A stretch of DNA of 34,153 nucleotides. Source: Acidimicrobiales bacterium. GTDB lineage: Bacteria; Actinomycetota; Acidimicrobiia; Acidimicrobiales; SHLQ01. The number at the start of each line of letters is the position of its first letter. The first letter of the stretch is position 1. The DNA is taken from assembly GCA_020629635.1 (NCBI GenBank), contig JAHDCX010000016.1, forward strand, positions 1 to 34,153, in the 5' to 3' direction. This document shows, in pieces, positions 14,343-33,326 of the stretch. Made by a program: the position numbers and the translations under genes. The notes beneath the pieces were generated by a model that was not told the origin of the DNA, did not search any database, and saw only the letters and a program-made list of their open reading frames with translations.

Positions 14343-15349
14343 GCCGACACCTCCGAGGTCTTGACCGGCCGACCCTCACGCACGGACATCCATGCGGCAA
14401 GGCCGATGACGAGCGGGGCGCGCCCGTCTTCGATCGTCAGTGGCATCGTCCCCGAGGACAGCCCCTCGACGAAGGCGTGCCATTCGGCGAGGTAGCTCGG
14501 GATGTACCGCTCGAGGAAGAAGTACGGGATGTTCTGCTGACGTGTCCCGTCGGCCGTGTGGACCTCGGCGGTGTGCTCACGCGGGTTCTCCGACACGGCC
14601 ATGCCGGCCGAGCCGAACACCTCGACGCGCTGGTCGTAGCCGTAGACGGCTTGCCGACTGTTGTCGATCGTCGTGATCACACCGTTCTCGTGCGTGAGCA
14701 TGACCACGGCGGTGTCGACGTCTCCGGCCTCGCCGATGGCGGGGTCGATCATGACTGCACCCTTGGCGTAGACCTCGGTCACCTCGGATCCGGTGACGAA
14801 GCGGGCCATGTCGAAGTCGTGGATCGTCATGTCGCAGAAGATCCCACCGGACACCTTGATGTATTCGATCGGCGGCGGCGCCGGATCTCGGCTCGTGATC
14901 TTCACCATCTGCACGTCCCCGACGGCACCGTCAGCGACCGCCTTCTGGACCGCTGCATGGGCGGCATCGAAGCGACGGTTGAAGCCCATCTGCAGCTGTA
15001 CGCCAGCCGCGTTGACCGCGGCGACGCAGCGATCGACCTCGGCGAGGTTGAGCGATACGGGCTTCTCGAGAAAGATCGCTTTGCCGGCTTGGGCAGCCGC
15101 GACAGCGAGATCGACGTGCGTGTCGGTACTGCTGCAGATCGCGACCGCGTCGACGTCAGACGCAAGGATGTCATCGACACTGGACATCGCCGGGACCCCG
15201 AGATCGGCTGCGACGGCCGCGGCACCCTCGGCGTACACGTCGTACACCGAGTGCAGGTCGAGGCCCGGAACTTGCCGCACGATGAGCTCGGCGTGCATCT
15301 TGCCGATGCGGCCCGTGCCGAGCACCGAGATGGTGGGGTTGTCGTTCAT
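14339..15349 (-). CDS. iolG: inositol 2-dehydrogenase IolG (Gfo/Idh/MocA)
   Basis: This 336-residue NAD-dependent dehydrogenase probably oxidises myo-inositol to 2-keto-myo-inositol. The Rossmann motif is VLGTGRIGKMHAE, the EKP motif is FLEKPVSLNL with the active-site lysine, and the IolG-typical segment GGIFCDMTIHDFDMARF supplies the catalytic Asp and His. QMGFNRRFDAAH is also characteristic. Of the three Gfo/Idh/MocA proteins in the window this has the most canonical IolG signature. The ATG at 15349 overlaps the stop of the desaturase-Rieske gene as ATGA, and its stop overlaps the SDR start. Confidence 0.93.
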   Translation of the reverse strand: MNDNPTISVLGTGRIGKMHAELIVRQVPGLDLHSVYDVYAEGAAAVAADLGVPAMSSVDDILASDVDAVAICSSTDTHVDLAVAAAQAGKAIFLEKPVSLNLAEVDRCVAAVNAAGVQLQMGFNRRFDAAHAAVQKAVADGAVGDVQMVKITSRDPAPPPIEYIKVSGGIFCDMTIHDFDMARFVTGSEVTEVYAKGAVMIDPAIGEAGDVDTAVVMLTHENGVITTIDNSRQAVYGYDQRVEVFGSAGMAVSENPREHTAEVHTADGTRQQNIPYFFLERYIPSYLAEWHAFVEGLSSGTMPLTIEDGRAPLVIGLAAWMSVREGRPVKTSEVSA

Positions 15350-16752: not shown

Positions 16753-17738
16753 CGCAGGTAGAGCCCTGGGGTAGCCGGCACGTCGACGCTCACCGCCGTC
16801 CCCGAACCGATCGACTCGAGCGCCGCGTCGGCCACGACTTGCGCGGCGTACCCGTCGAACACCGACGGACCCGACGCTGCCTCGGCAGACAAGGACTCGA
16901 CCCACCGGCGATCCTGGATGCGATACGCGTCGGCGAACCACCCAAACCAGTCGTCGCCGATCGGCATGCGATGGTCGCCGTCGATCCGCACCCTCGGTCG
17001 CGCCGGCGGCGCCGTCATCACCATTCCGCCGGCGGCGGTCGCCTCGACCTCGACTTCGTACGCGTACGTGTCGTCCGAGAATTCGATCACCGCGGTCGCT
17101 CCAGACGCCAGGCGGCACACGAGCAGCACATGGAGCAGGCCCTCGTCGCCGCGGGGCACGACTCGAGCGTCGACCTCCGTGATGTCCCCGCCGAGCCACC
17201 GGACCGTGTGCAGGTCGTGGATCAGCGACTGCACGATCACCGTCTCCGCCGAACGAATCTCGGCGTTCGTGTTGCGATGCGTACACCGCAGCAGATGGAG
17301 CTCGCCAAGGCCAGCGAGCTGGTCGGCCATGGCGACATGCGCCGGATCGACCTCACGCATGAAGCCGAGTTGCACCCGGCGAACCCCGAGGGCCAGCTCC
17401 GCGTCGAGCACCGTGCGGGCGGTGTCGAGATCATGCGCGAGCGGTTTCTCGCACAAGACCCGGCTTCCCGCCGCCAGGGCGGCGAGCGTCAACTCGGCAT
17501 GCGTGTGGTCGGGTGAGGCGATGACCACCCCGTCGTATCCGCCGGACGCAACCGCAGCCGGATCGGTGTTCCAGGGCGCACGAACCGCTTCGGCCACGGC
17601 GCGAGCCGTCGGCTCGTGCGGGTCGGCGATCGCCGCGACCTCCACCCCCGGCAGGGCGGCCAGCGTCTCGGCGTGGAATCGACCCATCCCACCCGCGCCG
17701 ATGACGGCAACGGTTTTGGGCGCCGACCGGTCGGGCAC
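16749..17738 (-). CDS. Gfo/Idh/MocA dehydrogenase, actinobacterial IolG-like
   Basis: This 329-residue NAD(P)-dependent dehydrogenase has Rossmann motif VAVIGAGGMGRFHAE, EKP motif VLCEKPLAHDLD, GFMREVDPAHVAM, LLRCTHRN and a catalytic IHDLHTVRWL segment. The GFMR and LRCTHRN features resemble inositol dehydrogenases of streptomycetes and corynebacteria more than the other two family members here. The GTG at 17738 is four bases past the IolD stop and gives the normal N-terminus; longer readings run into iolD. It probably acts on a different inositol isomer or derivative than the enzyme at 14339, which is inference from co-occurrence. Confidence 0.88.
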   Translation of the reverse strand: MPDRSAPKTVAVIGAGGMGRFHAETLAALPGVEVAAIADPHEPTARAVAEAVRAPWNTDPAAVASGGYDGVVIASPDHTHAELTLAALAAGSRVLCEKPLAHDLDTARTVLDAELALGVRRVQLGFMREVDPAHVAMADQLAGLGELHLLRCTHRNTNAEIRSAETVIVQSLIHDLHTVRWLGGDITEVDARVVPRGDEGLLHVLLVCRLASGATAVIEFSDDTYAYEVEVEATAAGGMVMTAPPARPRVRIDGDHRMPIGDDWFGWFADAYRIQDRRWVESLSAEAASGPSVFDGYAAQVVADAALESIGSGTAVSVDVPATPGLYLR

Positions 17739-17742
17739 GAGA

Positions 17743-19605
17743 TCAGCCGATGCGCTGGTCGGCCTTGCCGGCCACCACGTCGGCGCGGGCCTGCAGGACC
17801 GAGTCGAGCTCGGACACTTCCGGAACGCCGACCTCCCAGTACGACCCACCCTCGGTCCAGCTGTACGCGTCGGTCACCAGCGCGATCACCGTTGTGCGAT
17901 CGTTGGCCAACGCTCGGTCATAGGCCGCTTCGAGCTCGTCGATCGTCGACACGGTCTCGGCGATCGCCCCCATTGCCTCGGCGTGCTTGGCGAAGTCGAC
18001 GGCGACCGGGTTGGTGACGGTCGGGTTGTCCTTGATCAAGTTGTTGTATGGCTCGCCGCCCATGTTCGTCTGCAACCGGTTGATCACGGCGAAGCCGCCG
18101 TTGTCGCACACGATCACGATCATCTTGTGACCGTGCAGCACCGAGCTGTAGATGTCGGAGTTGAGCATCATCCACGAGCCGTCGCCGCAGAACACGACGA
18201 CGTCCTTGTCGGGCATCGCCATCGCTGCGCCCCAGCCGCCGGACGTCTCGTACCCCATACAGCTGTAGCCGTACTCGCAGTCGAAGCTGTTGAGCTGCTT
18301 GGCCCGCCAGCCGTTGTTGACCTCCCCGGGGAAGCCACCGGCAGCGGCGAGGGCGAAGGTCTTGTCGTCGGCCTTGCGGTCGATCGCGCCGACGACCTGG
18401 GCGTACGTGGGCAGACCCGAATCGCTCGACGCTTCCTTCGACGCGATCTTGTCGATGTAGGCGTTGTGCTGGGCGATCTCGGTGGCGACGGTCGTGCTCC
18501 ACTCGTCGCCAGCCCGATAGTCGCCGAGCATCGCCGACATCTCCGTGAGGGCTTCGCGGGCGTCACCAACGACCGGTGTCGAATGGTGCTTGGTCGCGTC
18601 GAAGCGGGCGGTGTTGACGCCGATGATCTTCACGTTGTCGTTCTTGAACACCGTCCACGACCCGGTCGTGAAATCGAGGAGCCGAGACCCGACTGCCACG
18701 ACGACGTCGGCTTCGGCCGCCAGCGCGTTCGCCGACGTTCCGCCGGTGACGCCGATCGGACCGCCGTACATCGGGTGATCCCACGTCATGCAGCTCTTGC
18801 CCGCAACGGTCTCGACCACCGGCACGTTGTGCGTGACGGCGAAGTCGGCCAGCGCCTCCTCGGCGAGCGAATAGTGAACGCCCCCACCGGCCACGATCAA
18901 CGGCTTCTCCGCGCCACGCAGCAGGCGCACGGCCTCGGCGAGTTGTGCCGAATCCGGGCGAGGGCGAGAGATGTCGTGCACCCGCTCCTCGAAGAACGCG
19001 AGCGGAAAGTCGTACGCCTCGGAACCCACGTCCTGTGGCAGTCCGATGAACGCCGGGCCGCAGTCCGCCGGATCGAGGATGGTCTGGATGGCGTGCGGCA
19101 GGGACGTGGTGAGCTGCTCGGGCTTGGTGATGCGATCCCAGTAGCGAGTCACCGCTCGGAACGAATCGTTGACCGTCTGGGTCGGGTCGCCGAAATGCTC
19201 GACCTGTTGCAACACGGGATCCGGCAAACGAGAGGTGAACGTGTCGCCCGAGATCAACAGCAACGGCAACCGATTGGAGTGCGCCACCCCGGCGGCGGTC
19301 ACCATGTTGGTGGCGCCGGGCCCGACCGAGCTCGTGGCCACCATGATCTGGCGGCGCCGCTTGGCCTTGGCATAGGCCACACCGGCGAGCGCCATGCCCT
19401 GTTCGTTCTGCCCGCGGAAGGTCGGCAGCTCGTCCTTCGCCCGCTCGAGCGCGTGCCCGAGCGCGGTCACGTTCCCGTGCCCGAAGATCGCATACACGCC
19501 GCCGAACAACGGCTCGACCGAGCCATCGACCTGCACCGATTTCTGCGCAATGAGGTACTTGACGATCGCCTGCGACGTCGTCAGTCGGATGGTGTCACTG
19601 CTCAC
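17743..19605 (-). CDS. iolD: 3D-trihydroxycyclohexane-1,2-dione acylhydrolase IolD
   Basis: This 620-residue thiamine-diphosphate enzyme opens the inositol ring, hydrolysing 3D-(3,5/4)-trihydroxycyclohexane-1,2-dione to 5-deoxy-glucuronate. The N-terminal pyrimidine-binding domain has the catalytic Glu in FRGQNEQGMA and the IolD-type IFGHGNVTALGHAL. The C-terminal domain has the ThDP/Mg motif CGDGSWMMLNSD ... VCDNGGF. The length is that of the family. The GTG at 19605 has a GGAGG ribosome binding site about seven bases upstream, inside the end of the preceding gene, with which it overlaps by eleven bases. IolD is diagnostic of inositol catabolism. Confidence 0.96.
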   Translation of the reverse strand: MSSDTIRLTTSQAIVKYLIAQKSVQVDGSVEPLFGGVYAIFGHGNVTALGHALERAKDELPTFRGQNEQGMALAGVAYAKAKRRRQIMVATSSVGPGATNMVTAAGVAHSNRLPLLLISGDTFTSRLPDPVLQQVEHFGDPTQTVNDSFRAVTRYWDRITKPEQLTTSLPHAIQTILDPADCGPAFIGLPQDVGSEAYDFPLAFFEERVHDISRPRPDSAQLAEAVRLLRGAEKPLIVAGGGVHYSLAEEALADFAVTHNVPVVETVAGKSCMTWDHPMYGGPIGVTGGTSANALAAEADVVVAVGSRLLDFTTGSWTVFKNDNVKIIGVNTARFDATKHHSTPVVGDAREALTEMSAMLGDYRAGDEWSTTVATEIAQHNAYIDKIASKEASSDSGLPTYAQVVGAIDRKADDKTFALAAAGGFPGEVNNGWRAKQLNSFDCEYGYSCMGYETSGGWGAAMAMPDKDVVVFCGDGSWMMLNSDIYSSVLHGHKMIVIVCDNGGFAVINRLQTNMGGEPYNNLIKDNPTVTNPVAVDFAKHAEAMGAIAETVSTIDELEAAYDRALANDRTTVIALVTDAYSWTEGGSYWEVGVPEVSELDSVLQARADVVAGKADQRIG

Positions 19606-20770
19606 GGAGGTCCTCCACGTCTTGCCAGGTTCCGGTTTCGGTCGACTTCAGCAACGCCGCCTGCACGGACACGTAGTCGACTGCCTCGGCGAAGCTCGCC
19701 GAGTGCTTGGTGCCCGCGGCGACGGCGTTCAGGTACTCGTAGTCCTCGATCGTCACGAGGTCTTCGAACGCGATCGAGTTGGCGTCACCGGGCACGAACG
19801 CGCCGTGGTACGGGTAGCGGTCGCCGCCCCGCACGGTCGTGTAGCCGCGGGCCTCGTCCTTCAACAAGAACAAGCCCATCTCGTTCATCGTCTCGAGGTT
19901 CCAGTGGGCGGCGCCCTTGGTGCCGTACACGTCGAACGCGTTCTGCGACTCGGGGCCGATGATCGACCGACTCGTCTCGAACGTGCCGATCGCGCCATTG
20001 GCGAACTCGACCATTGCGCCGAAGTAGTCCTCGTTGGTGACCGGCCCGGTCGGATCACCAGGCTCGCCCCGGTCGTAGTGGGTACCGCCCGGCTTGGGCA
20101 TCGGACGTTCGGTGATGAACGTCTTCTGATAGCCCATCACCCGCTCGATCGGGCCGACGAGCATGTGGGCGAGATCCATCGAGTGACTGAGGATGTCGGT
20201 CGAGACGCCGTACCCGGCCTGATCGACCTCGAACCGCCAGCTGAGCAGCCCCATCGGGTCGGCGCCGTACATCGAGAAGAAGCGGCCCCGATAGTTCGTG
20301 ATCTCGCCGAGCTCACCCGCCTCGATCAGACCCTTGAGGTACTGCACGAGCGGGGCGAAGCGGTAGTTGTAGCCAACCCCGGTCACGACACCGGCGTCTC
20401 GACACGCCTTTTCGACCCGGACGGTCTGGTCGGGCTTGCCCCCGACCGGTTTCTCACAGAAGACGTGCTTGCCGGTCTCGGCAGCCGCAACGCAGATCTC
20501 CTCGTGCAACATGTTGGGTGCGGTGCAGGTGACCACGTCGATGTCGTCGCGGTCCATGATCTCGCGCCAGTCTGCGACTGCGGTCTCGAACCCAAAGCTG
20601 TTGACGGCCATGTCGCGGCGGTCCTCGAGGTTGTCGGCGCACACGGCGAGCACCGGGTCGTAGGCCCGGTCCTCCCAGAGCATCGGGATGCGCGCGTAGC
20701 TTCGGCTGTGGGCCTGGCCCATCCAGCCGAGGCCGATGACGGCGATACGAAGTGGTTGGCGGTCGGTCAC
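19595..20770 (-). CDS. Gfo/Idh/MocA family oxidoreductase
   Basis: This 391-residue member is longer than the other two Gfo/Idh/MocA proteins in the window. The Rossmann motif is VIGLGWMGQAHSRSYA, the EKP motif is HVFCEKPVGGKPDQT, and VGYNYRFAPLVQYLK and STDILSHSMDLAHML carry the substrate-side residues. An insertion rich in Gly, Pro and Asp (about residues 225-245) is not seen in the other two. Members of this subgroup include dehydrogenases of scyllo-inositol and other sugar derivatives, so a modified-cyclitol substrate is plausible. The GTG at 20770 overlaps the hydroxyacid dehydrogenase stop as GTGA; the C-terminus overlaps iolD. Confidence 0.88.
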   Translation of the reverse strand: MTDRQPLRIAVIGLGWMGQAHSRSYARIPMLWEDRAYDPVLAVCADNLEDRRDMAVNSFGFETAVADWREIMDRDDIDVVTCTAPNMLHEEICVAAAETGKHVFCEKPVGGKPDQTVRVEKACRDAGVVTGVGYNYRFAPLVQYLKGLIEAGELGEITNYRGRFFSMYGADPMGLLSWRFEVDQAGYGVSTDILSHSMDLAHMLVGPIERVMGYQKTFITERPMPKPGGTHYDRGEPGDPTGPVTNEDYFGAMVEFANGAIGTFETSRSIIGPESQNAFDVYGTKGAAHWNLETMNEMGLFLLKDEARGYTTVRGGDRYPYHGAFVPGDANSIAFEDLVTIEDYEYLNAVAAGTKHSASFAEAVDYVSVQAALLKSTETGTWQDVEDLREQ

Positions 20771-21696
20771 GAGATTCTCCGTGCGGGATGATCGAGTACG
20801 GCGGGATTGCGAAGTTCGGTTGGGGTCTGACCCCGAAGCGCCATGACGACCTGTTCGGCGGCCATGCGCTCCATCCGGGCACGACCAGCGATGGTCGAGC
20901 TGGCGATGTGCGGCGTGACGATCACGTTGTCCATGTGCAGCAGCGGATGGTCAGCTGGCAACGGCTCTGGATCGGTGACGTCGAGCCCCGCACCCATGAG
21001 GTGGCCCGACTGCAGCGCAGCGACGAGGTCATCGGTCACGACGATGGGGCCACGGGCGCAGTTGATCAGGACCGAACCGGGCTTCATCTTGGCGAGCATC
21101 GTGGTGTCGAACAGGCCCGCCGTCTCCGATGTCACTGGGAGATGCAGCGACACGATGTCCGCCCGCGCGAGCAGCTGGTCGAGTGGTACCGAATCCTGAC
21201 GAGCCGGATCGTGGACGAGCACGCCGAGATCAAACCCGGCCGCCATTCGAGCAACCGCCCCACCGATACGTCCTGCGCCAACGAGTCCGAGGGTTCGCCC
21301 AGCGAGCTCCATCGACCGTTGCTGGGCGATGTAGTTGCCCGAGCCCGCCCGAAGACGCGCGGCGGACGCGGCGAGTTCGTGCGAGACGGCGAGCATCAGC
21401 GCCATCGTGTGTTCGGCAGTCGAGGTCGTCGGCCCGTCGGGCGTGTTGGTGACCATCACCCCAGCCTCAGTACAGGCGGCCAGGTCGATGGCGTCGATTC
21501 CGATACCCGTCCGAGCGATCAGCCCGAGCTCCGGGAGGTCGGCGAGTTCGTGCGCGGTGTAGGGCTCACTCCCGGCGATCGCCACGTGCGCGCGGCGTCG
21601 ACCATCCGCCGACGGGCCGACCACCTCCCAACCGGCGTCTCGAACGAATTCGATGAGATGGTCAGGGCAGCCTCGCGAGAACCAGACCGTGGTCAT
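20767..21696 (-). CDS. D-isomer-specific 2-hydroxyacid dehydrogenase
   Basis: This 309-residue NAD-dependent dehydrogenase is of the D-2-hydroxyacid/phosphoglycerate dehydrogenase family. The catalytic-domain segment LIARTGIGIDAIDL is followed by the NAD motif GLVGAGRIGGAVARMA, then the active-site Arg in LINCARGP, Glu in DVTDPEPLP and His in VTPHIASS. All three catalytic residues are present. It is not part of the standard inositol pathway; in the operon it may process a side product such as a hydroxyacid or ketoacid. ATG 21696 overlaps the IolB stop as ATGA and its stop overlaps the next gene. Confidence 0.9.
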   Translation of the reverse strand: MTTVWFSRGCPDHLIEFVRDAGWEVVGPSADGRRRAHVAIAGSEPYTAHELADLPELGLIARTGIGIDAIDLAACTEAGVMVTNTPDGPTTSTAEHTMALMLAVSHELAASAARLRAGSGNYIAQQRSMELAGRTLGLVGAGRIGGAVARMAAGFDLGVLVHDPARQDSVPLDQLLARADIVSLHLPVTSETAGLFDTTMLAKMKPGSVLINCARGPIVVTDDLVAALQSGHLMGAGLDVTDPEPLPADHPLLHMDNVIVTPHIASSTIAGRARMERMAAEQVVMALRGQTPTELRNPAVLDHPARRIS

Positions 21697-22601
21697 GCCG
21701 GTCCCGCTGCGGTCATCAGCGGCAGCCGGTCATCCATCGGCTGGCTCGACAATTCATCGCGCACCCAATGGTGCGTGGGGTCGTCGCAGAACGCCATCGA
21801 GCGTTCGCCACCCGGACCCGCGAGCACGTTCAGGTAGTACATCGTGTACCCCGGCGCGGCGATGCATGGGCCGTGGTACCCGCGTGGGACGAGGAACACG
21901 TCTCCGTCGTGAACGACGACATTCTCGTCGATCACGGGCATGCCCTCGTGGCCGATGCCGGTGTAGGTGCGATGCATGCCAAAGCCGACATCGGTATAGG
22001 CCGTGCGCCCGGCCTCGCCGATGCGGAAGTAGTAGATCTCTTCGTTGTTGACCTCGCACTCAGGCGAGTCGTCGTGCTTGTGCGGCGGGTAGGACGACCA
22101 GTTGCCGTCCGGCGTGTACACCTCGACGCACATCAGCTTGTCGGCGCCTGCGAACTGCTCGGGAGAGCAGAAATTGTTGATCTGTCGGCTCGCCTGTCCA
22201 CCGCCTCGCAGCTCGACCGACACGTCCTCGGCGGGACCGTGGTGAAGGTCGGTGCGTCGCGTGGCCCGGGCCGAACAGAGGGCGACCTCGATCGGAAGAT
22301 CCGACGTCGACGTGATCGTCATGGCCGTCTCGATCGGCATGTACGCCCAATCGGTCACGCGGGCGAACACGGTGTCTCGGCCCACGAGGGCAAGCCGCGA
22401 ACCTTCGGCGTCGACGGTGCAACCGCCGCCCGACAGTGGCAGCACGGCGAACTCCTCGGCACCGGTCGCAATCGTGCGTGACTCGCCGGGAAGGAGTCGA
22501 AGCACCCGGAGACCGCTGTAAGTCCACCCCGCCTGCTCCGGTGTGAGCGCAAGGGAGTCGGCACCGTCGGCGAGCGTGCCGTGCGGGTGATGGAGACTCA
22601 T
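21693..22601 (-). CDS. iolB: 5-deoxy-glucuronate isomerase IolB (second copy)
   Basis: This 302-residue bicupin is IolB, next to IolC. Visible features are VFARVTDWAYMP, the GGGQASRQINNF segment, the metal-site PPHKHD, the following NNEEIYYFRI and VPRGYHGPCIAAPGY. It isomerises 5-deoxy-glucuronate to 2-deoxy-5-keto-gluconate, the substrate of IolC. The ATG at 22601 overlaps the IolC stop as ATGA. It differs along most of its length from the copy at 12613-13467, so the pair is not a recent duplication. Confidence 0.92.
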   Translation of the reverse strand: MSLHHPHGTLADGADSLALTPEQAGWTYSGLRVLRLLPGESRTIATGAEEFAVLPLSGGGCTVDAEGSRLALVGRDTVFARVTDWAYMPIETAMTITSTSDLPIEVALCSARATRRTDLHHGPAEDVSVELRGGGQASRQINNFCSPEQFAGADKLMCVEVYTPDGNWSSYPPHKHDDSPECEVNNEEIYYFRIGEAGRTAYTDVGFGMHRTYTGIGHEGMPVIDENVVVHDGDVFLVPRGYHGPCIAAPGYTMYYLNVLAGPGGERSMAFCDDPTHHWVRDELSSQPMDDRLPLMTAAGPA

Positions 22602-23554
22602 GAGGCGTCCCGTTCTGCCAGGAGATTCTCGATGTCGGCGATCGTCGGCATGTCGTCCGCGCACATCAACCGGCCCGCAACGATCGCGCCGGCTGCGTTG
22701 CCCCACTTGATGATCGTCTCGGGATCCCAGCCCTCGAGCAGGCCGTGACAGAACGCGCCGCCGAAGGCGTCGCCCGACCCGAGACCGCACACGACGTCAA
22801 CCCAGTAGGGAGGAACCGAGACGCGCGTGCCGTCGGCCGTGGCGATCATGACGCCGTCGGCGCCCAGCTTCATGACCGCCATCTCGAGGCCGCGTTCGAG
22901 GAGGCGGTCGGCCGCCTCGTTCATGTCGCGGGTCCCGACGGCGATCTCGCACTCGTCCTTGTTGCCGATGGCGATCGTGACGTGATCGAGAATCGGGGAG
23001 ATCGCCTCCGTGGCCTGTTCGGGCGATTCCCAGAACATTGGTCGCCAGTCGAGATCGATGACCGTGTGGGTTGCTCGCTTGCGAACGTTGAGCAGCGACC
23101 GCATCGTGTCCGCGGCGCGCTCATCGGAGAAGCGTGACGCGGGAAACCAGAAGATCGGCACGTTGGCGACCACGTACGGATCGATGTCGGCGGGGTTGAT
23201 GTTCAGATCCGGCGCCCGAGGCTCGCGGTAGAAGATGATGGACGGCTCTTCGGGCGGATCGAGCTCGGCGAAGGCGAGCGGCGTCTTGAGATCAGGGTCC
23301 GTGCCGATGAATCGGTTGTCGACGCCGAAGGTGTGCTCGAGTGCATGTCGGACGTAGTCGCCGAACTGGTCGTCGCCGACCTTGGTCGCCAACGCCGCCG
23401 ATCGCCCGAGTCGCGCTGCCGCAACGGCCACGTTGGTGGCCGTCCCACCGATCGACTTGCGGAACGACGTCACGTTCCGCATCGGCTCTCCGAGTTGTTC
23501 GGCGTAGAGATCGACGCTGACGCGTCCGACCGTCAGCAGTTCGAGCTCAGCCAT
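22598..23554 (-). CDS. iolC: 5-dehydro-2-deoxygluconokinase IolC
   Basis: This 318-residue PfkB-family kinase phosphorylates 2-deoxy-5-keto-gluconate at position 6. The N-terminus is LLTVGRVSVDLYAEQLG with the substrate-binding SIGGTATNVAVAAARLG, and the C-terminal PfkB signature CGLGSGDAFGGAFCHGLLEG contains the catalytic Asp. The DUF2090 aldolase-like domain fused to IolC in some bacteria is absent, which fits the separate LacD-type aldolase in this operon. The ATG at 23554 lies five bases after the ABC ATPase gene and the stop overlaps the IolB start. Confidence 0.94.
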   Translation of the reverse strand: MAELELLTVGRVSVDLYAEQLGEPMRNVTSFRKSIGGTATNVAVAAARLGRSAALATKVGDDQFGDYVRHALEHTFGVDNRFIGTDPDLKTPLAFAELDPPEEPSIIFYREPRAPDLNINPADIDPYVVANVPIFWFPASRFSDERAADTMRSLLNVRKRATHTVIDLDWRPMFWESPEQATEAISPILDHVTIAIGNKDECEIAVGTRDMNEAADRLLERGLEMAVMKLGADGVMIATADGTRVSVPPYWVDVVCGLGSGDAFGGAFCHGLLEGWDPETIIKWGNAAGAIVAGRLMCADDMPTIADIENLLAERDAS

Positions 23555-23558
23555 GTCG

Positions 23559-24359
23559 TCAGTCGCCGTTGCCGTTTCCGGTCGCCGCAGCGAGTTCGTG
23601 TTCGAGCGCTTCGAGTTCGGCACCGCCCGCCATCAGCTGTGTGAGCTCGTCGATCGTGATGTCTTCCTTGGCGAACGAGCCCATCGACTGGCCCCGATTC
23701 AGGATCAAGAAGCGGTTGCCCACCGGATAGGCGTGGCGCGGATTGTGCGTGATGAAGATCACGGCGAGCCCTTGGTTGCGAGCTTCCACGATGCGCTTCA
23801 GCACGACGCCTGACTGCTTCACGCCGAGCGCAGAGGTCGGCTCGTCGAGGATCAGGACCTTGGCGCCGAAGTAGCCCGCGCGGGCGATCGCGACCGACTG
23901 ACGCTCGCCACCAGAGAGGGTGCCGACGGCTTGTTCGGTGTCGCGGATGTCGATGCCCATCTTGGCCATCTCTTCCTTCGCGATCTGCTTGGCCGTGGAT
24001 TGGTCGATCCACTTGAACGGGCCGAGACGCTTCGTTGGCTCTGCCCCGAGGAAGAAGTTCCGCCACACCGACATGAGCGGGACCATTGCAAGGTCCTGGT
24101 ACACCGTTGCGATACCGGCACTGAGCGCATCACGAGGAGAGTTGAACATGACCTCCTCGCCGTTGAGCCGGATCGTTCCCTCGGATTGTTGATGCACGCC
24201 CGCGAGAATCTTGATGAAGGTCGACTTGCCGGCCCCGTTGTCGCCCAACACGCAGGTGACCTCACCGGCGTTGACGACGGTGCTGACTCCCTTGAGGGCG
24301 ATGATGTTGCCGTAGAACTTCGAGATGTTGTCGAGCTCGAGCAGATGTTGATCAGCCAT
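23559..24359 (-). CDS. sugar ABC transporter ATP-binding protein (single domain)
   Basis: This 266-residue ABC ATPase belongs to the carbohydrate-uptake class 2 importers. Walker A is GDNGAGKST, the Q-loop is VYQDLAMVP, the signature is [14 protein letters not shown], Walker B is [11 protein letters not shown] and the switch His is in FITHNP. Only one nucleotide-binding domain is present, as in FrcA, whereas RbsA/MglA-type proteins have two in about 500 residues; two copies would pair in the complex. The ATG at 24359 has an AGGAG site six bases upstream. It lies between the permease and iolC and energises uptake of the pathway's substrate. Confidence 0.94.
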
Positions 24360-24375
24360 TGCGTTCTCCTCTCGA

Positions 24376-26289
24376 TCAGCGTCGGGCCGAGTCGGCCCGG
24401 TCGCGAATGGCACGATTCGAGATGACCGCCAACAGCAGGATCACCCCAAGGAACACGAACCGCCAGTCGGAGTTCCACCGCGCCGAGGCGATGCCGACAG
24501 CCGACATCGCCATGATTGCTGCGCCGATTGCCCCTCCGAGGGCTGTGCCGTAGCCGCCAGTCAGCAGCGTTCCTCCGACGACGGCCGCGATGATGAACTC
24601 GAATTCCTCTCCGTCACCGGCCGATGCCTGCAGACTGTTGAGTCGGAATGCGAGCAACATGCCGACCAGCCATGCGGCTCCGGACACGATCATGAAGAGC
24701 TGGGTCTTCGTGCGGGCCGCCGGAACACCGACCTGGCGAGACGCCTCTTTGTTGCCGCCGACCGCAAAGGTCCACGACCCGAACCGGGTGTTTCCGAGGA
24801 TCCACACCATCACCGCAGTGAAGCCGAAGAACCACAGCATCCGGACCGAGAACTTCGCGGGGTTGACGCCAGCCTCGAGTTCGGCGTCGGTGACGAACAA
24901 ATGGCGAATGATCACGGCGAACACCAGCAGCGCAACGCCGAGAAGCAGGCCACGGGTCCCGAGCCGATCGGCGGATGCGTCAGTTCTGCGTCGCTCTTCG
25001 AATCGGGTCCCGAGCACTGCCCACGCAAACAGCGCAAGGGCGCACAGCAACAACACGGAGAACAGCTCCGTTCGGAATTTCGCGGCTTCTGACGACGCAC
25101 GGACGACGAAGGCGAAGCCGGCGAGCGCCGCTGCAATCACGGTCGACACGGCGCCCTTGGTGATTGGATTGACGCTCAAGGCTCGATTTGCGGCGACCAT
25201 CGCCAACATGAATCCAACGCCGACGAAGACCATGATGAGCACCGCGCGTAGGCCCTGGACCGTGAAGGGGAAGAAGAGCGTCTCGCTGTTGGCGGAATCA
25301 ATCGCGAAGGCACAGGCGACGGCGATGCCGATCGAGACGAGCCCGGCCACGAGGTAGTTCGTGATGCCAGCGTTGAGCCGGAGACCGCCAGCGGCGGCAA
25401 CGGGCTCGTACCGCCACTGGCCAAATCCGACCATTGCGACGACGACCGATACGGCGAGCACCGCTGCGGCCACGAAGTTCGCCCCGACGCCGTCGGTGGT
25501 GTGGAACAACACGATTGAGGCGACGAAACCGGCCATCCCGAGGCCAAATAGCCCCAGTCCGGCGGGCTTCGGCTCGGAGCGACGCACGAAGTGCATCTCA
25601 CAGACAGACAGCGTGATGAGAATCGTCCCCACCAGAAACATCCCGATGTAGAACAGATCACGTCCGTTCCAGACATGGGAGTTCCGCTCCCATTCGGCTG
25701 CGAAGATCCGCTGCCAGAACGCGTATCCGTGGGCATCGTTCGTGAAGGTCACCGAGATCTGGCCGACGATCAGCTTCGCAAGGCCCAGCTTCGCGCCTTT
25801 CAATATGAAGAACGTGGCCAAGGTCACGATGAAGCTCGGTAGCGCCGTTTTCTCGACCATCCAGCCGTTGAAGAATCCCACGGCCATGGCGAACGCGAAG
25901 GAAAGCGGAACCGCGATCCAGATCGATGCGCCAAGGCCGCCGAGCTCACCCGTCTCGCGGATGAGAAGGATGAAGAGAATACCCATCGCACCGGTGTTGG
26001 CACCCGAGGACAGGTCGAACTCGCCACCAATCATAAGCATCGAGACCGCAACCGCCATGATGCCGAGCGTCGAGGCCGAATCAAGCCAGTTCTGCGTGCC
26101 TCCGGTTGTTCCGAAGTTCAGCGAAACGGCCCAAAAGAACGTCCATACGCCGATCGCACCGATAATTGCCCCGATCTCCGGCCTGATGAACAGCCGTTGA
26201 AAGATGCTTCGATATGCGAGCCGCTCGTCCGCCTCGCCGGCGTCGTTTGCCGTCGCAGAGTTCGCGTCCACGGCACTCACGTCGGTCAT
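24376..26289 (-). CDS. oversized sugar ABC transporter permease (RbsC/FrcC family)
   Basis: This 637-residue permease is about twice the normal family length (320-350). The family's N-terminal half (about residues 35-225: [40 protein letters not shown]) and C-terminal part (about 500-637: [38 protein letters not shown]) are recognisable. Between them lies an extra stretch of about 275 residues with six or seven additional hydrophobic segments. The reading frame is intact and codon use looks like its neighbours, so this is not a frameshift artefact. It is preceded by an intercistronic hairpin (26325-26364) and a G-rich ribosome binding site, and followed after 16 bases by the ATPase gene. Confidence 0.9.
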
Positions 26290-26324
26290 CCCCCTACTCC
26301 CCCTGTTTGTGTTCTCTTTGAAAG

Positions 26325-26364
26325 CGGTCGAGCCGCCCGGGAGAGGTCCCGGACGGCCCGACCG
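26325..26364 (-). promoter_or_regulatory. intercistronic hairpin between binding protein and permease genes
   Basis: Arms at 26325-26342 and 26347-26364 face each other across a 4-base loop. In the minus-strand RNA all 18 positions pair, two of them as G-U wobbles, which shows the structure is shaped for the transcript of this operon. It lies in the 122-base gap after the binding-protein gene and is not followed by a U-run. This is the usual place for a partial terminator or 3' stabiliser that raises binding-protein expression over the permease. Confidence 0.65.
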
Positions 26365-26411
26365 AAAGCATTCATTCGGATCGAGCCGATGTCACCATCG
26401 ACTCGCCGAGA

Positions 26412-27470
26412 TCAGCGGGTGCCGGCCTCCGAGAGGGCGAGCACACTTGCTGCGTTGTCTGCGGTCACGAAGCCGGGTCCGGTGAGGATCGGCTGGCCAC
26501 CGCCAATGGTGTTCGAGTTCGTCTGGAACAAGAACAGCTGCAGGATCGGCAGGTAGCCCTGCAGGTACTGCTGCTGGTCCACCGTGAACAGCACGTCGCC
26601 ACCTTCGATCGCACCAAGGAGCTCCGGCGTGAGATCGAAGCCGCCGACGATCACGTCACGACCGAGGTCGCCCGCCGCGCGAACGCCCGACATCGTGATG
26701 ACCGGACCAACGCCGAGGAACCCGTCGATCGACTCATCAGCGGCCATCGCCGCGTTGATCGCTGCCTGCTGCGCCGTGGTGTCGGCGTCGAGGTCCATGA
26801 AGTCCGTGGTCACCGTGCCCGAGAACGTGTCCTCGAGACCAGCGCAACGTTCGGTGAGACCGACGTTGTTCTGCTCCTGCTGACCGCAAAGTACGTGCGT
26901 GGCGCCAGCGGCGTTGAAGCGTTCACCAGCAGCCTGACCGGCGATGAATTCGGTCTGGCCGACGTGGGTCAGCGCGCCGATCTCCTGGTAGTCGTTGGCG
27001 CCCGAGTTGAGCGTCACCACGGGCACGCCCTGGCCAACTGCGCCCTGAAGAACCGGCACGAGGGCGGTCGGATCAGGGAGGGATGCGGCGATACCGCTCG
27101 AGCCCTCTGCGAGCGCACCTTCGATGTCCTGCACCATTTGGTTCGCGTCATTGAAGCCAGGCATCCAGACACACTCGACCCCGAGATCGGAGCATGCTGC
27201 TTCCATGCCGCGCTTCACGACAGACCAGAACGGGCCGTCTTCGGAGTGCGTGATCATGTGGAACGTGAGGTCGCCGGACTGTGCGACGTCGACCTCTTCG
27301 GTGTCGCCGGAATCACCGGAATCACCCGAGTCGCCGGAATCTCCGGAGTCGGTGCTCTCGGAGCCGGTGTCGCCGCCATCTGCGGTGTCTCCCGAATCTC
27401 CATCGCTGCCGCATGCTGCGGCAACCATGACGAGGGCCAGCAGCATGGCCAGCCAACGCATCTTCTTCAT
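26412..27470 (-). CDS. sugar ABC transporter substrate-binding lipoprotein
   Basis: This 352-residue periplasmic-binding-protein type 1 (ribose/inositol class, Peripla_BP_4) has a lipoprotein signal (MKKMRWLAML ... VAAAC, Cys20) and an acidic Gly/Ser/Asp linker to about residue 60. The binding domain starts at LTFHMITHSEDGPFWSVVKRGME and contains GIAASLPDPTALVP, VPVVTLNSGAND, THVGQTEFIAGQAAGERF and VGGFDLTPELLGAI. The ligand is probably an inositol or sugar, judging from the operon. An AGGAGG ribosome binding site precedes the ATG at 27470. Confidence 0.94.
   Translation of the reverse strand: MKKMRWLAMLLALVMVAAACGSDGDSGDTADGGDTGSESTDSGDSGDSGDSGDSGDTEEVDVAQSGDLTFHMITHSEDGPFWSVVKRGMEAACSDLGVECVWMPGFNDANQMVQDIEGALAEGSSGIAASLPDPTALVPVLQGAVGQGVPVVTLNSGANDYQEIGALTHVGQTEFIAGQAAGERFNAAGATHVLCGQQEQNNVGLTERCAGLEDTFSGTVTTDFMDLDADTTAQQAAINAAMAADESIDGFLGVGPVITMSGVRAAGDLGRDVIVGGFDLTPELLGAIEGGDVLFTVDQQQYLQGYLPILQLFLFQTNSNTIGGGQPILTGPGFVTADNAASVLALSEAGTR
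27304..27348 (-). repeat. 9-bp tandem repeat encoding Ser-Gly-Asp linker
   Basis: Five imperfect 9-bp units encode successive SGD tripeptides in the linker between the lipid-anchored cysteine and the binding domain of the substrate-binding protein. Such a repeat can change length by slippage in frame. Confidence 0.85.
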
Positions 27471-27529
27471 GTGGTTTCCCCTCCTGTGGGTTTCTTTGGT
27501 TTCTACGAGCCTCAAGACCCAGTGGCCGC

Positions 27530-28423
27530 TCACGCGGCCAATCGCGCCTCCAGGTCACGGAGATATTCGAGGCTCTCGCGAACCCCTTCGATCGGACCTT
27601 CCCCCTCAACCGGCTCCTCGCCGGTGATGGCGACGTCCTGTTCGAGCACGTACCAGCCGTCATAGCCGGACGATTCGAGCGACGTTATTACAGCAGCGAT
27701 GTCCAGGTCACCTCGCCCCACGGAGGGGAAGATTCCGCCCTGTACCGCTTCCATCAGCGTGAGCTCGCCGGCGTTGAGACGCTGGGCGACCGCAAGATCA
27801 CAGTCCTTGATGTGCACGAGGCCAACTCGGTCGCCGTGGTCTCGGGCGAAGTCGACCGGGTCGTACCCGCCAACGGCGAAATGGGCAGTGTCGAGCACGA
27901 ACCGGATCGACGAGTTGTCGACGACCCGCTGGATCTCGTCTTTGGTCTCGACGATGCACCCGACGTGTTCGTGGAGCACCTGAATGAGCCCGTGCGCCTC
28001 GGTGATCTCTTCGATGCGGGCGAACATCTCGTAGGTGTGGGCCCACTCCTCGTTGGTCAGTTCGCGGCGCGGTTTCCAGTCCCACGAGGTGACCGCCGCC
28101 GTGTTGAAGTAGGTGGCGCCGACGGTTTGGAGAAGCTCGGCCATGTCGACCATGCGCCGGAGGGTCTCATCGGCCTGGGCTGGATCGTGCACCACGGCGG
28201 GAACGAAGGCGGCGAGCATGCCAAGCCCGTGTGGTTCGAGCACCGAGCGCAGCTCCTTGGGGTCGGAGGGGAGATACCCGTCGGAGCCGAGCTCGGTGGC
28301 CGGAAAGCCCAGCGAAGCCATTTCGGCGAGCACGCGGTCGACCGGGAGCTGGATGCCCCAGCCCGGCACTTCACAGATCCCCCACGAGATCGGTGCGGTT
28401 GCCATACGTGCAGTGAATCCCAT
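27530..28423 (-). CDS. iolE: inosose dehydratase IolE/MocC-like TIM-barrel protein
   Basis: This 297-residue xylose-isomerase-like TIM barrel is of the IolE/MocC group. Segments are APISWGICEVPGWGIQLP (the IolE N-terminal signature), ELGSDGYLPSD, LHEHVGCIVE, VLDTAHFAVGGYDP, HIKDCD and IFPSVGRGDLDI, which together carry the metal-binding Glu, Asp, His and Glu positions. IolE dehydrates 2-keto-myo-inositol to 3D-trihydroxycyclohexane-1,2-dione. MocC of rhizopine catabolism is in the same group. It is the first gene of the leftward operon. ATG 28423 with GAGGGG upstream is preferred; an ATG at 28405 is also possible. Confidence 0.91.
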   Translation of the reverse strand: MGFTARMATAPISWGICEVPGWGIQLPVDRVLAEMASLGFPATELGSDGYLPSDPKELRSVLEPHGLGMLAAFVPAVVHDPAQADETLRRMVDMAELLQTVGATYFNTAAVTSWDWKPRRELTNEEWAHTYEMFARIEEITEAHGLIQVLHEHVGCIVETKDEIQRVVDNSSIRFVLDTAHFAVGGYDPVDFARDHGDRVGLVHIKDCDLAVAQRLNAGELTLMEAVQGGIFPSVGRGDLDIAAVITSLESSGYDGWYVLEQDVAITGEEPVEGEGPIEGVRESLEYLRDLEARLAA

Positions 28424-28470
28424 GTGCCCCTCAGTCACGTTCCGTGATGATCAGCGCTCTCTTCGCTGGT

Positions 28471-28488
28471 GAGTAGAGCGCTCTACTC
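28471..28488. promoter_or_regulatory. perfect 18-bp palindromic operator O1
   Basis: The sequence GAGTAGAGCGCTCTACTC is a perfect inverted repeat with the central CG typical of LacI-family operators. It lies between the predicted leftward promoter and iolE, at roughly +10 to +27 of that transcript, where a bound repressor would block elongation. The divergent lacI gene is the obvious source of the repressor. Confidence 0.8.
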
Positions 28489-28503
28489 GGTGACGCAGGA
28501 CAC

Positions 28504-28533
28504 AACCTAGAGACAGTTCGGCAGCAATGTCAA
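28504..28533 (-). promoter_or_regulatory. predicted promoter of the leftward iol operon
   Basis: On the minus strand, TTGACA (28533-28528) and TAGGTT (28509-28504) are separated by 18 bases. The -35 box is consensus and the -10 is weaker. Transcription would begin near 28497, just before operator O1, and read iolE first. Confidence 0.5.
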
Positions 28534-28575
28534 CCTAGACTCTCAAGAAATCTCGCCACTTCGAGCGAAACCTCC

Positions 28576-28605
28576 TTGCCAAGTAGAGCGCTCCACCTCT
28601 ATGGT
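28576..28605 (+). promoter_or_regulatory. predicted lacI promoter
   Basis: TTGCCA (28576-28581) and TATGGT (28600-28605) are separated by 18 bases on the plus strand. The second operator copy lies in the spacer, which would give direct autorepression. The -10 box overlaps the ATG at 28601, so if this promoter is correct the mRNA starts near 28612 and translation would begin at the GTG at 28613. Confidence 0.4.
28581..28598. promoter_or_regulatory. operator O2, imperfect copy of O1
   Basis: AAGTAGAGCGCTCCACCT matches O1 at 14 of 18 positions and keeps the AGTAGAGCGCTC core. It is immediately upstream of the lacI start. The centres of O1 and O2 are 110 bp apart, so DNA looping between them is possible. 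Confidence 0.7.
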
Positions 28606-29626
28606 CGCCACCGTGGGGCAACCAACGATGGACGACGTCGCCGCGAAGGCTGGCGTGAGCCGAGCACTCGTGTCGCTCGTCATGCGCGACTCACCGCGGG
28701 TCTCCGATCAAAGCAGAGAAAAGGTGCTCGCCGCCGCCCAGGAACTCGGGTACCGCCCAAATGTGTGGGCCCGAAATCTCGCCAGCGGTCAAACCCACAC
28801 CGTCGGCGTGATGCTCAACGACCTCCACAACCCGTACTTCACTGAGATGGCCGAAGGCGCTGCGATGGCGGCCGACGACCGCGGCCTCCAGATCATGATG
28901 ACCTCCGGCTGGCAGCGGGCCGCCGGCGAAGTCGCCGCGATCGAATCGCTGCTCGCGATGCGCACCGACGGCTTGCTGCTCGGCGCCGCGCGGCTGAGCG
29001 TTGAGGTCCTCGAGGGCTTCGGCGCCCAGGCCCCGACCGTCGCCGTGAGCACCTACTCCGAGACGGCCGTCTTCGACACGGTCAACAACGACGAAGAACA
29101 CGGCGCCAACCTGATCGTCGACCACCTCGTCGACCTTGGACACACGCGCATCGCACACATCGACGCATCGATCGCCGCCGGTGGACCCGAGCGCAAACGG
29201 GCGTTTGTCAACGCCATGACCGCACGCGGGCTGGCTCCGATCGTCGTCGACGGAGACTTCAACGAACACGCCGGCCGGGAGGCCGCGCAGCAGCTCGTCG
29301 GTCTCCACGAACCTCCGACCGCCATCTTCGCCGCCAACGACCTCGCCGCCATCGGCGTGCTCTCCCATCTCCAGGCCGAAGGCGTGCGCGTCCCCAATGA
29401 CATCTCCGTCATTGGCTACGACGACACGATCCTGGCCGGCATCGGAACCGTCTCGCTGACCACGGTGCATCAGCCCCGCCAGCGATTCGGACAGCACGCC
29501 ATCGAGCTTCTCGCCGAGCGCATCGACGGGCGCACCGACGTCCGCCACGAACTCATCCAACCCCGGCTCGTCACCCGCTCCTCCACCGGGCGGGCGGCGA
29601 CGTCCACGACCACCAAACGAAAGTGA
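28601..29626 (+). CDS. LacI-family transcriptional regulator
   Basis: This 341-residue repressor has an N-terminal helix-turn-helix ([20 protein letters not shown], about residues 10-29), the hinge segment [15 protein letters not shown] and a sugar-binding periplasmic-type domain ([21 protein letters not shown] ... [14 protein letters not shown] ... ISVIGYDDT). It lies at the head of the rightward xylA-mmsA-dioxygenase genes and is divergent from the iol operon, so it probably controls both sides through the palindromes at 28471 and 28581. The inducer is presumably an inositol or pathway intermediate. The start could also be the GTG at 28613, which gives the usual short distance to the helix-turn-helix. 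Confidence 0.93.
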
Positions 29627-29630: not shown

Positions 29631-30962
29631 ATGAGCGAGTTCTTCACGACCGTCTCCTCACCCATCGCCTACGAAGGTCCGGACTCGGACAATCCGATGG
29701 CGTTCCGCTGGTACGACAAGGACCGCATCGTCATGGGTCGCTCGATGGAAGAGCAGCTCCGCTTCGCCGTCTGCTATTGGCACTCGTTCGCGTGGAATGG
29801 CGCCGACATCTTCGGCGCGGGCACCTTCGATCGACCGTGGACCGACGCGGCGATGGACCCGATGGACGCCGCCCGGATGAAGATGGATGCGGCGTTCGAG
29901 TTCTTCGCCAAACTCGGTGCGCCGTTCTACTCGTTCCACGACCGCGACATCGCCCCCGAAGGAGCGACGTTCGCCGAGTCGTGCGCCAACCTCGACGACA
30001 TGGTCGACATCGCCGAAGCGAAAATGGCCGAGACCGGTATGAAGCTCCTGTGGGGCACCGCCCAGGCCTTCTTCCAGCCGCGCTACGCCGCCGGCGCCGC
30101 CACCAACCCGAACCCCGACGTCTTCGCCCACGCCGCCGCGCAGGTGAAGCACTGCCTCGACGCCACCCACCGACTCGGTGGGGCCAACTACGTGCTGTGG
30201 GGCGGGCGCGAGGGCTACGAGACCCTGGTCAACACCGACATGGGACGCGAGCTCGACCAGCTCGGACGCTTTCTCAACATGGTCGTGCAGTACAAGCACG
30301 ACATCGGTTTCGACGGCACGATCCTGATCGAGCCCAAGGCGCTCGAGCCCACCAAGCACCAGTACGACTACGACTCGGCCACCGTCTATGGCTTCCTCCA
30401 GCGCTACGGGCTCGAGAACGACATCAAGGTCAACATCGAGGTCAACCACGCCACCCTCGCCGGCCACGACTTCGACCATGAAGTCGCCCAGGCCGTCACC
30501 AACGGCATCTTCGGCTCGGTCGATGCCAACCGCGGCGACGATCGGCTGGGCTGGGACACCGACCAGTTCCCCAACTCGGTCGAGTCGATGAGCCTCGGCG
30601 TCTACCAGATCCTCAAGGGTGGAGGCTTCGACACCGGCGGCTTCATGTTCGACACGAAACTTCGCCGCCAGAGCCTCGCCCGCGACGACCTCTTCCACGG
30701 TCACATCGGCGCCATGGACACCCTCGCGCGGAGCCTGCTCGTCGCCGCGGCGCTCATCGAAGACGGCGAGCTCGATGCGCTCGTCGAAGAGCGCTACGCC
30801 GGGTGGAGCAGCGACGAAGGGCAACGCATCCTCGCCGGAGAGGTCGGACTCGCCGACCTCCACGCCCGGGTGCTTGCCGACAATGTCGACCCTGCGCCGG
30901 TGTCCGGACGCCAGGAGATGATCGAGAACCTGATCAATCGAACCATCGAAAGGGTCCGTTGA
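29631..30962 (+). CDS. xylA: xylose isomerase
   Basis: This 443-residue enzyme is of the class II (long) XylA family and close to the length of the E. coli enzyme. It keeps the catalytic His and Asp in [10 protein letters not shown], the metal site in [34 protein letters not shown] and [20 protein letters not shown], and the C-terminal [10 protein letters not shown] and [10 protein letters not shown] segments. It interconverts D-xylose and D-xylulose and often accepts other aldoses. No xylulokinase or xylose-specific gene is present in the window. It starts four bases after lacI and its TGA shares a base with the ATG of mmsA, so its job is tied to the inositol regulon. Confidence 0.93.
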
Positions 30963-32467
30963 TGGCTGACCTCGCACGGATCGACCACTGGATCGACGGC
31001 GAACGCACGTCACTGTCGTCGACCCGCCGGGCCGACGTGTACAACCCGGCGACCGGCCAGGCGACCGGTTGGGTCGCCCTCGCCGAACTCGCCGACGTCG
31101 ACGCGGCGGTGGCGTCGGCTCGCGCCGCGTTCGAGACGTGGGGCGAGACCTCCATCGCCAAGCGAACCCAGGTGCTGTTCCGCTACCGCGAGCTGCTCGA
31201 CGCCAACCGGATGGAGCTCGCGGCGATGATCTCGGCCGAGCACGGCAAGGTGCTCGCCGACGCGGCCGGAGAGGTGGGCCGTGGTCTCGAGGTCGTCGAG
31301 TTTGCCTGCGGGGTGGGCCACATTCTCCAGAGCCCGTTCACCGAGTCGGTGTCCACCAACGTCGATGCCTACACGATCCGTCAGCCCGTTGGCGTGGTCG
31401 CCGGGATCACACCGTTCAACTTCCCGGCGATGGTCCCCATGTGGATGTTCCCCGTCGCCCTGGCCTGCGGCAACACGTTCATCCTCAAGCCGAGCGAGAA
31501 GGACCCGACCGTCAGTCTCGCCATGGCCGAGTTGTTGACCGACGCCGGGTTGCCCGACGGCGTGTTCAACGTGCTGCAGGGCGATGCCGTTTCGGTGAAC
31601 GGCCTGCTCGAACACCCCGGTGTCGACGCCGTCAGCTTCGTCGGCTCGACCCCGATCGCCAAGCACATCCACCGCACTGCCACCGAGCACGGCAAGCGAG
31701 TCCAGGCGCTCGGTGGCGCGAAGAACCACATGATCGTGCTCCCCGACGCCGACATGGGCCAAGCGGCCGACGCGGCAGTCTCGGCAGGCTACGGATCTGC
31801 GGGCGAACGCTGCATGGCGATCTCGGTCGTCGTGGCCGTCGGCGACGTCGCCGACCGGCTCATCCCCGAAATCACGAGCCGGATCGACGACCTGAAGATC
31901 GGCCCGGGCCTGTCCGAAGATCCGATGGACATGGGAGCGCTGGTCACCGGCGATCACCGCGACCGGGTCGCCAACTACATCGACATGGGCGTCAGCGAAG
32001 GCGCAACGTTGGTCGCTGACGGCCGTGGCCTCTCGGTCGACGGGCACCCCGACGGCTACTGGCTGGGCGCCACGCTGTTCGACAACGTCACCACCGACAT
32101 GAAGATCTACGAAGACGAGATCTTCGGACCGGTGCTGTGCGTCGTTCGCTGCGACAGCTACGACGACGCCCTGCAGATGATCAACGACTCGCCGTTCGGC
32201 AACGGCACGGCGATCTTCACCAACGACGGCGGCGCCGCCCGCCACTTCCGCCACCACGTCAAGGCAGGCATGGTCGGCATCAACGTGCCGATCCCGGTGC
32301 CCATGGCGTACCACTCCTTCGGCGGCTGGAAGGACTCGCTCTTCGGCGACACACACGTCCACGGCTCCGAAGGCATCAAGTTCTACACCCGCAACAAGGC
32401 CGTCACCGAACGTTGGCCCGACCCGCACGACCGAGGCGTCAACCTCGGCTTCCCCACGATGGATTGA
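30962..32467 (+). CDS. mmsA: CoA-acylating (methyl)malonate-semialdehyde dehydrogenase MmsA/IolA
   Basis: This 501-residue aldehyde dehydrogenase superfamily enzyme performs the last inositol step, malonate semialdehyde to acetyl-CoA and CO2 with NAD and CoA. Characteristic features are GVVAGITPFNFPAMVPMW, FILKPSEKDP, GGAKNHMIVLPDAD, the catalytic Cys in AGERCMAIS and IFGPVLCVVR. The MmsA-specific GAKNH and GERCMA motifs set it apart from ordinary aldehyde dehydrogenases. The ATG overlaps the xylA stop (TGATG). It is also useful for valine breakdown, but the location supports the IolA role. Confidence 0.95.
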   Translation: MADLARIDHWIDGERTSLSSTRRADVYNPATGQATGWVALAELADVDAAVASARAAFETWGETSIAKRTQVLFRYRELLDANRMELAAMISAEHGKVLADAAGEVGRGLEVVEFACGVGHILQSPFTESVSTNVDAYTIRQPVGVVAGITPFNFPAMVPMWMFPVALACGNTFILKPSEKDPTVSLAMAELLTDAGLPDGVFNVLQGDAVSVNGLLEHPGVDAVSFVGSTPIAKHIHRTATEHGKRVQALGGAKNHMIVLPDADMGQAADAAVSAGYGSAGERCMAISVVVAVGDVADRLIPEITSRIDDLKIGPGLSEDPMDMGALVTGDHRDRVANYIDMGVSEGATLVADGRGLSVDGHPDGYWLGATLFDNVTTDMKIYEDEIFGPVLCVVRCDSYDDALQMINDSPFGNGTAIFTNDGGAARHFRHHVKAGMVGINVPIPVPMAYHSFGGWKDSLFGDTHVHGSEGIKFYTRNKAVTERWPDPHDRGVNLGFPTMD

Positions 32468-32480
32468 GAGGAGACCGCTC

Positions 32481-33326
32481 ATGTTTGAGGTCGACGTCAC
32501 TCGTCTCGACGAGCAAATGCCGGACATCATCGAGGAGTTCATCTCCGGCGCCGGCGCCGTGGTGATCCGGGGTGCGTTCTCGGCCGATGAGGTCGCCGCC
32601 GCCCGAGCGCTGATCATGGAGTACTCGGCCGACGAGGACAAAGAAACCCACTTTCAGGGCGCCAACGCCGACACACTCCATCTGCAGCGACGTGTCTGGA
32701 ACCTGCTCAACAAGGGCGAAATCTTCGAGGCAATGATCCAGCACCCCGACGTCGTGAAGATCGCGTCCGCCATCCTCGGCGACAAGTTCATCCTCGGCTC
32801 GATCGCCGCCAACCGCCTGTTGCCGGGCGGACCAGGCCAGGAACCCCACATCGACTATCCGTACTGGGACATGTACGAACGAGAGGGCTTCCCGGCGCGG
32901 ATCAATTCGAGCTACCCGCTCAACATGCAGGTGACGATCCCGCTCGACCCGTTCAACGCGACGTCGGGCGCATCGGCCTTCCTCGCCGGATCGCAGGGCG
33001 AGCTGCTGTATCCTGAGACCTCGGACCGCGAGCGTTTCTACGCCGACTGTGACCGGATGTCGGGCGATCCGGGTGACGCAATCATCTTCAATGGCATGTG
33101 CTGGCACTGTGCGATGCCCAACGAGTCCGACCACGACCGCTCGGCCATCCTCATCGAATACCTCGCCAAGTTCGTGACCCCGCTCGAGGATCAGAAGTCG
33201 GGAGTGCGCCAGGAGGTCATCGACCGCGGCACGCCCCTTCTGCATCAGCTGATGAGCCTCACCTACCCCTATCCCAAGCTTTTCGACGAAGCCGAAGGCA
33301 AGTCCCTCATCGGTAGGGACGCGTAA
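32481..33326 (+). CDS. phytanoyl-CoA dioxygenase (PhyH)-family Fe(II)/2-oxoglutarate oxygenase
   Basis: This 281-residue oxygenase has the double-stranded beta-helix of the PhyH family. The iron ligands are His and Asp in PHIDYP and a distal His in CWHCAMPN; the 2-oxoglutarate-binding Arg is in DRSAILIEY. NMQVTIPLDPFNATSGAS is the usual family core. Members hydroxylate or demethylate small molecules with 2-oxoglutarate and O2. It follows mmsA by 13 bases with a strong GAGAGGAG ribosome binding site, so it belongs to the LacI-controlled rightward unit. A role in oxidative removal of a substituent from the cyclitol is possible but only inferred. Confidence 0.9.
   Translation: MFEVDVTRLDEQMPDIIEEFISGAGAVVIRGAFSADEVAAARALIMEYSADEDKETHFQGANADTLHLQRRVWNLLNKGEIFEAMIQHPDVVKIASAILGDKFILGSIAANRLLPGGPGQEPHIDYPYWDMYEREGFPARINSSYPLNMQVTIPLDPFNATSGASAFLAGSQGELLYPETSDRERFYADCDRMSGDPGDAIIFNGMCWHCAMPNESDHDRSAILIEYLAKFVTPLEDQKSGVRQEVIDRGTPLLHQLMSLTYPYPKLFDEAEGKSLIGRDA

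Follow-up and report, generated by a model that had tools for sequence, protein, structure and literature searches.

We propose that two palindromic sites, O1 and O2, which both lie inside the 162-bp intergenic gap separating a divergent iol/rhizopine-like operon from a lacI gene, are the operators of the adjacent LacI protein, through which it would repress both arms of the locus and also its own synthesis. Comparative sequence analysis leads us to assign this reading a probability of about 90%, and it also supports the earlier note on this DNA, which had put forward paired operators of the adjacent LacI with autorepression. The pair is real but is a conventional bacterial on/off switch. It gives an inositol/rhizopine-type operon a well-supported predicted operator and a regulator, together with a corrected lacI start; our literature search found no paper on regulation in this lineage.

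The two sites and their conservation

O1 (28471-28488, GAGTAGAGCGCTCTACTC) is a perfect 18-bp palindrome, and O2 (28581-28598, AAGTAGAGCGCTCCACCT) is identical to it at 14 of 18 positions, with 110 bp from the start of one to the start of the other, which confirms what had been described from the sequence at first sight; as predicted operators, neither is assigned to a strand. A perfect palindrome of this length is not rare on its own, since composition predicts 0.31 per 34-kb window (the window being the whole stretch of 34,153 nucleotides analysed), and one further example is found at 31838 within the mmsA coding sequence. The number expected in the 162-bp gap is 0.0013, and a second copy matching at 14 or more of 18 positions in the remainder of the gap was produced by 0.06% of shuffles. 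The sites have the form of LacI-family operators, being even palindromes with a central CG that stand beside the regulator gene and are kept in its orthologues. A weak third site of the AGCGCTC type (28449-28466, 12/18) is found 22 bp away from O1, and such a spacing is favoured where LacI-family dimers bind cooperatively; the site was rejected as a third operator because it is absent at that distance in relatives.

The first comparison set comprised LacI orthologues of 62-72% identity from 12 other genomes, giving 13 loci together with the present one. Both sites were found upstream of lacI in 12/12 of the other orthologues and hence in 13/13 loci, with the 14-bp core of O1 (GTAGAGCGCTCTAC) identical in every one, while the match of O2 to the O1 consensus varied from 12 to 17 of 18 positions and was degenerate (12-13/18) in several orthologues (L011, L014 and L015). 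Since the DNA between O1 and O2 cannot be aligned across the loci, save in the near-identical pair L009/L010, the sites appear to have been kept against background turnover, and this phylogenetic footprint in 13/13 loci therefore removes doubt about their reality. The order iolE-like<-|->lacI is kept wherever the contigs extend far enough, and xylA, mmsA or PhyH genes follow lacI in the relatives. Whether relatives that share this gene order also keep the palindrome had been chosen beforehand as a refutation test, and they proved to keep it. A later, 14th orthologue (L114, 65% identity, from the family of G088) also has two sites, which are separated by 171 bp and altered in their outer bases.

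Among 397 genomes of the order, the exact 14-mer core was present in 17, and the reversed-pattern control in 3. The core occurred in 11/11 genomes of this sample with an orthologue of at least 62% identity versus about 6/386 without one (Fisher P ~1.5e-17, relatedness ignored). One genome (G005) has a second copy at a contig end; as that contig opens on the iolE side of this gap, the simplest reading is that overlapping contig ends carry one and the same site twice. In orthologues of 42-50% identity, which are more distant, the gap between the iolE-like gene and lacI nearly always contains a T(A/G)GAGCGCTC(T/C)A palindrome, often TTGGAGCGCTCCAA, and many of these orthologues have a single site only; L118 (45% identity) has the iolE-like neighbour and no recognised site in the gap. 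Orthologues of other orders, in which lacI and iolE are not divergently arranged, showed no site at the place examined. In the same gap, seven distant orthologues (L018, L020, L021, L040, L041, L043 and L045) have two sites just 17-19 bp apart, which is a different two-site design. A perfect palindrome, ATGTAAACGTTTACAT, lies between the two operators of L017 at about -126 from the match start and is perhaps a site for another regulator.

Promoters, regulator and proposed repression

The predicted promoter of the iol operon, TTGACA-18-TAGGTT (28504-28533, minus strand), ends so that O1 begins 15 bp past the -10 hexamer, and a TAnnnT -10 element stands at the same distance ahead of O1 in 10/13 orthologous loci, so the earlier placement of O1 just downstream of this promoter holds. 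By eye, TTGAC is found about 44-48 bp before O1 in 12/13 loci; in L007 and L012 a scripted nearest-match search picked an inner TTGAC instead. The iol transcript is predicted to start near 28497, with O1 covering approximately +10 to +27. The palindrome lies within this predicted 5' leader, where a 7-bp stem is possible, and could thus be read as an RNA hairpin or terminator and not as an operator. However, the leader fold is no better than that of shuffles (z -0.32), there is no T-run terminator, the same sequence is also found in the lacI promoter upstream of the lacI start, and the palindrome is linked to lacI across genomes. We have rejected the hairpin reading, which we consider very improbable.

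In the lacI direction, a scan of the region gave only one promoter-like match, TTGCCA-18-TATGGT (28576-28605, plus strand), which spans O2, with the site lying between the -35 and -10 elements as had been claimed from the sequence. Its placement in the lacI promoter is conserved in the relatives: in 8 loci O2 precedes the lacI start by about 48 bp, on the -35 region, and in the other 5, including this one, by about 30 bp, between -35 and -10. The locus therefore has a putative operator on the regulator's own predicted promoter, as an autoregulated local regulon would. Since the -10 hexamer of this O2-bearing promoter overlaps ATG 28601, it is probable that lacI starts instead at GTG 28613, with which the orthologue N-termini M(G/S/A)Q(P/T)TMDDVA align, and we have moved the start accordingly (lacI, 28613-29626, plus strand). 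Furthermore, since a TAnnnT-like hexamer is found 6-9 nt ahead of the lacI start in relatives, the lacI mRNA is probably leaderless, with a predicted start near 28612.

The lacI product matches the LacI-family profiles PF00356 (4e-16) and PF13377 (5.5e-37), both over cut-off, and with an N-terminal LacI HTH and a periplasmic-binding-protein-like effector domain it belongs to the LacI/GalR family; the nearest PDB structures are those of CcpA, RbsR and PurR. The IolR proteins of Bacillus and Corynebacterium are iol regulators of the DeoR or GntR type, and the regulator here, being of the LacI type, has neither domain.

The divergent operon begins with an iolE-like TIM-barrel gene (27530-28423, minus strand; TIGR04379, 163.6 bits, below the cut-off of 290). 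The rest of this arm (11729-27473, minus strand) comprises a rhizopine-type ABC transporter, iolC, iolB, NAD-binding oxidoreductases, iolD, a desaturase+Rieske protein, an SDR, a KduI/IolB-like protein and a DeoC/LacD aldolase, with the IolC and IolB profiles over cut-off and the rhizopine-type binding protein below it. On the other side, genes for a xylA-like isomerase of the xylose-isomerase family, mmsA (a CoA-acylating aldehyde dehydrogenase type) and a PhyH-type dioxygenase are closely spaced with lacI (29631-33326, plus strand). The fatty-acid-desaturase/Rieske protein is encoded at 15346-16695 in what is otherwise an inositol-type cluster (11729-28423 and 29631-33326). By homology, the sugar pathway would be of the inositol/rhizopine type, and since the cluster contains both the desaturase+Rieske protein and the rhizopine-type binding protein, its content suggests O-methyl-inositol or rhizopine (methyl-scyllo-inosamine) as the substrate. 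The gene content of both arms likewise makes an inositol-related inducer likely, and the best explanation of the adjacent LacI would be a local regulator of inositol, methyl-inositol or rhizopine-type catabolism.

Sequence and comparison show the sites and how they are conserved, their link to the repressor, where they lie on the predicted promoters and how they are phased; from this we infer protein binding, repression, an effector and possibly a loop, as follows. Without inducer, a repressor dimer at O1 would stop RNA polymerase from using the divergent iol promoter, whether at initiation, at escape or in the earliest elongation; at O2, a second dimer would block the lacI promoter, so that lacI-xylA-mmsA-phyH would be autorepressed. 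Both operators would then be released by an inositol-related inducer. The earlier note had more specifically proposed a road-block of the catabolic operon. Repression of the iol arm is supported, but a true elongation road-block acting after initiation is too specific and appears unlikely. The centre of O1 at about +18 is indeed downstream of the predicted start site; however, that start is itself a prediction, and at +10 to +27 O1 still overlaps the region reached by the usual RNA polymerase footprint. A block of initiation or escape at O1 would be as likely as a road-block.

Operator spacing and possible contact between dimers

Since the O1-O2 spacing keeps one helical phase, the dimers at the two operators may touch, either by closing a loop or in a cooperative complex. 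Across the 13 loci the spacings are 110, 122, 132, 144, 132, 132, 153, 190, 165, 153, 143, 163 and 165 bp, and they share a phase with R=0.82 at a best period of 11.05 bp (tree ignored). The probability of this phasing is ~0.0002 against uniform spacings and 0.0005-0.001 against jittered ones, with the tree again ignored for the 13 loci, and is 0.006 when only unique spacings are considered; no other period gave a comparable phase signal among these loci. The distances from O1 to the lacI start are less phased (R ~0.55). O2 falls into two position classes that are 19 bp apart relative to lacI, and both yield the same O1-O2 phase, so it is the spacing of operator to operator and not of promoter to promoter that appears to be phased. 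In E. coli the fitted in vivo helical repeat is 11.08 bp, with 11.60 from another data set (PMC1762422). It is therefore a possible, if minority, reading that the two dimers interact to close a 110-bp loop in which both promoters are repressed together, O2 serving for autorepression and as an auxiliary operator.

Against this loop, however, the regulator aligns to E. coli LacI only up to residue 339, whereas the LacI tetramerization segment comprises residues 340-357 (PMC3899939), and the orthologue C-termini are short tails with no heptad seen, so that the C-terminal segment of a lac-type looping repressor is missing. Furthermore, L012, at 190 bp, and L114, at 171 bp, do not share the phase, R falls to 0.68-0.72 and the best period shifts to 10.5 bp once distant loci are included, the phase test takes no account of the tree, and many distant orthologues have one site. 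The same absence of a tetramer segment and the same single sites in many distant relatives favour non-interacting dimers that repress the two promoters independently, for which each operator on its own promoter would suffice and the phasing would be due to chance or inheritance. The helical phase signal (P ~1e-3) counts against such independent dimers, to which we give slightly better than an even chance. The looping suggested from the first inspection would thus be in keeping with the phased spacings of the 13 loci and is opposed by the missing segment, and we put looping or dimer-dimer contact at about one in three. The fullest form of the idea, in which a LacI-family repressor without a tetramer tail links operators of divergent promoters in a phase-dependent loop of ~10 to 15 helical turns, and in which the natural spacings reveal selection for phase at the in vivo helical repeat, is rather doubtful. 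The natural series of operator spacings is well suited to a direct test of phase-dependent repression by such a tail-less protein.

Known regulators and the genome-wide search

As in the E. coli lac system, there is a predicted primary operator just past the start, a second at a distance and a spacing that may depend on phase (PMC1762422); unlike in lac, the second operator here belongs to a divergent promoter, and the tetramerization segment of E. coli LacI is absent. IpsA of Corynebacterium and Mycobacterium is likewise a LacI-type protein without the LacI tetramerization residues and is inositol-responsive and dimeric, but its targets are inositol synthesis and lipid genes, on which it acts in part as an activator (PMC3899939). 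IolQ (DegA) of B. subtilis, a LacI-family repressor of the inositol gene iolX, has two footprinted sites at +4 to +30 and +68 to +88, the former being the stronger, and differs from the present case in its core (AGAAARCGCTTKCK), in having both sites on one promoter and in not sharing an iol divergon with the gene that encodes it (PMC5504672); it is a close functional precedent for the proposed LacI repression at O1 and O2. The CelR/CebR cellulose regulators of Actinobacteria share the operator core GAGCGCTC (as TGAGAGCGCTCTCA and other variants), and differ in outer bases and target genes (PMC3377646). According to the accessible part of a comparative genomic study, LacI-family regulons include those of inositol regulators named IolR, 72% of the regulators studied are autoregulated and approximately 20% of operons are preceded by more than one site; the even palindrome and central CG are as found here, and the local catabolic regulon and autoregulation as predicted here (PMC4052901). 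In that part of the article we found neither the motif nor the orthologous group of this locus described, and its text has no IolR motif for comparison (PMC4052901). A literature search limited to an open collection found no description of the orthologous group of this LacI.

A wider regulon including reductase or formaldehyde genes had also been anticipated, and this was not borne out, as no further regulon site and no such gene with a recognisable palindrome was found in the genome assembly (96.5% complete). With one mismatch or fewer, the 12-bp core TAGAGCGCTCTA occurs solely at O1 and O2 in the 4.45-Mb genome. Another 21 places match it, every one with 2 mismatches and many within apparent coding sequence, and since the reversed-pattern control gives 136 matches, we regard these as background. 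A scan of genome contigs showed no close orthologue. At C31:507999 (G000; L003:1500-1517), GAGTAGACCGACCTACTC has outer arms identical to those of O1, without the GAGCGCTC core. One of the 21 places, TAGAACGATCTA (G000:C27:291429-291440, L135), abuts the upstream side of a paralogous lacI and is probably the operator of that gene itself.
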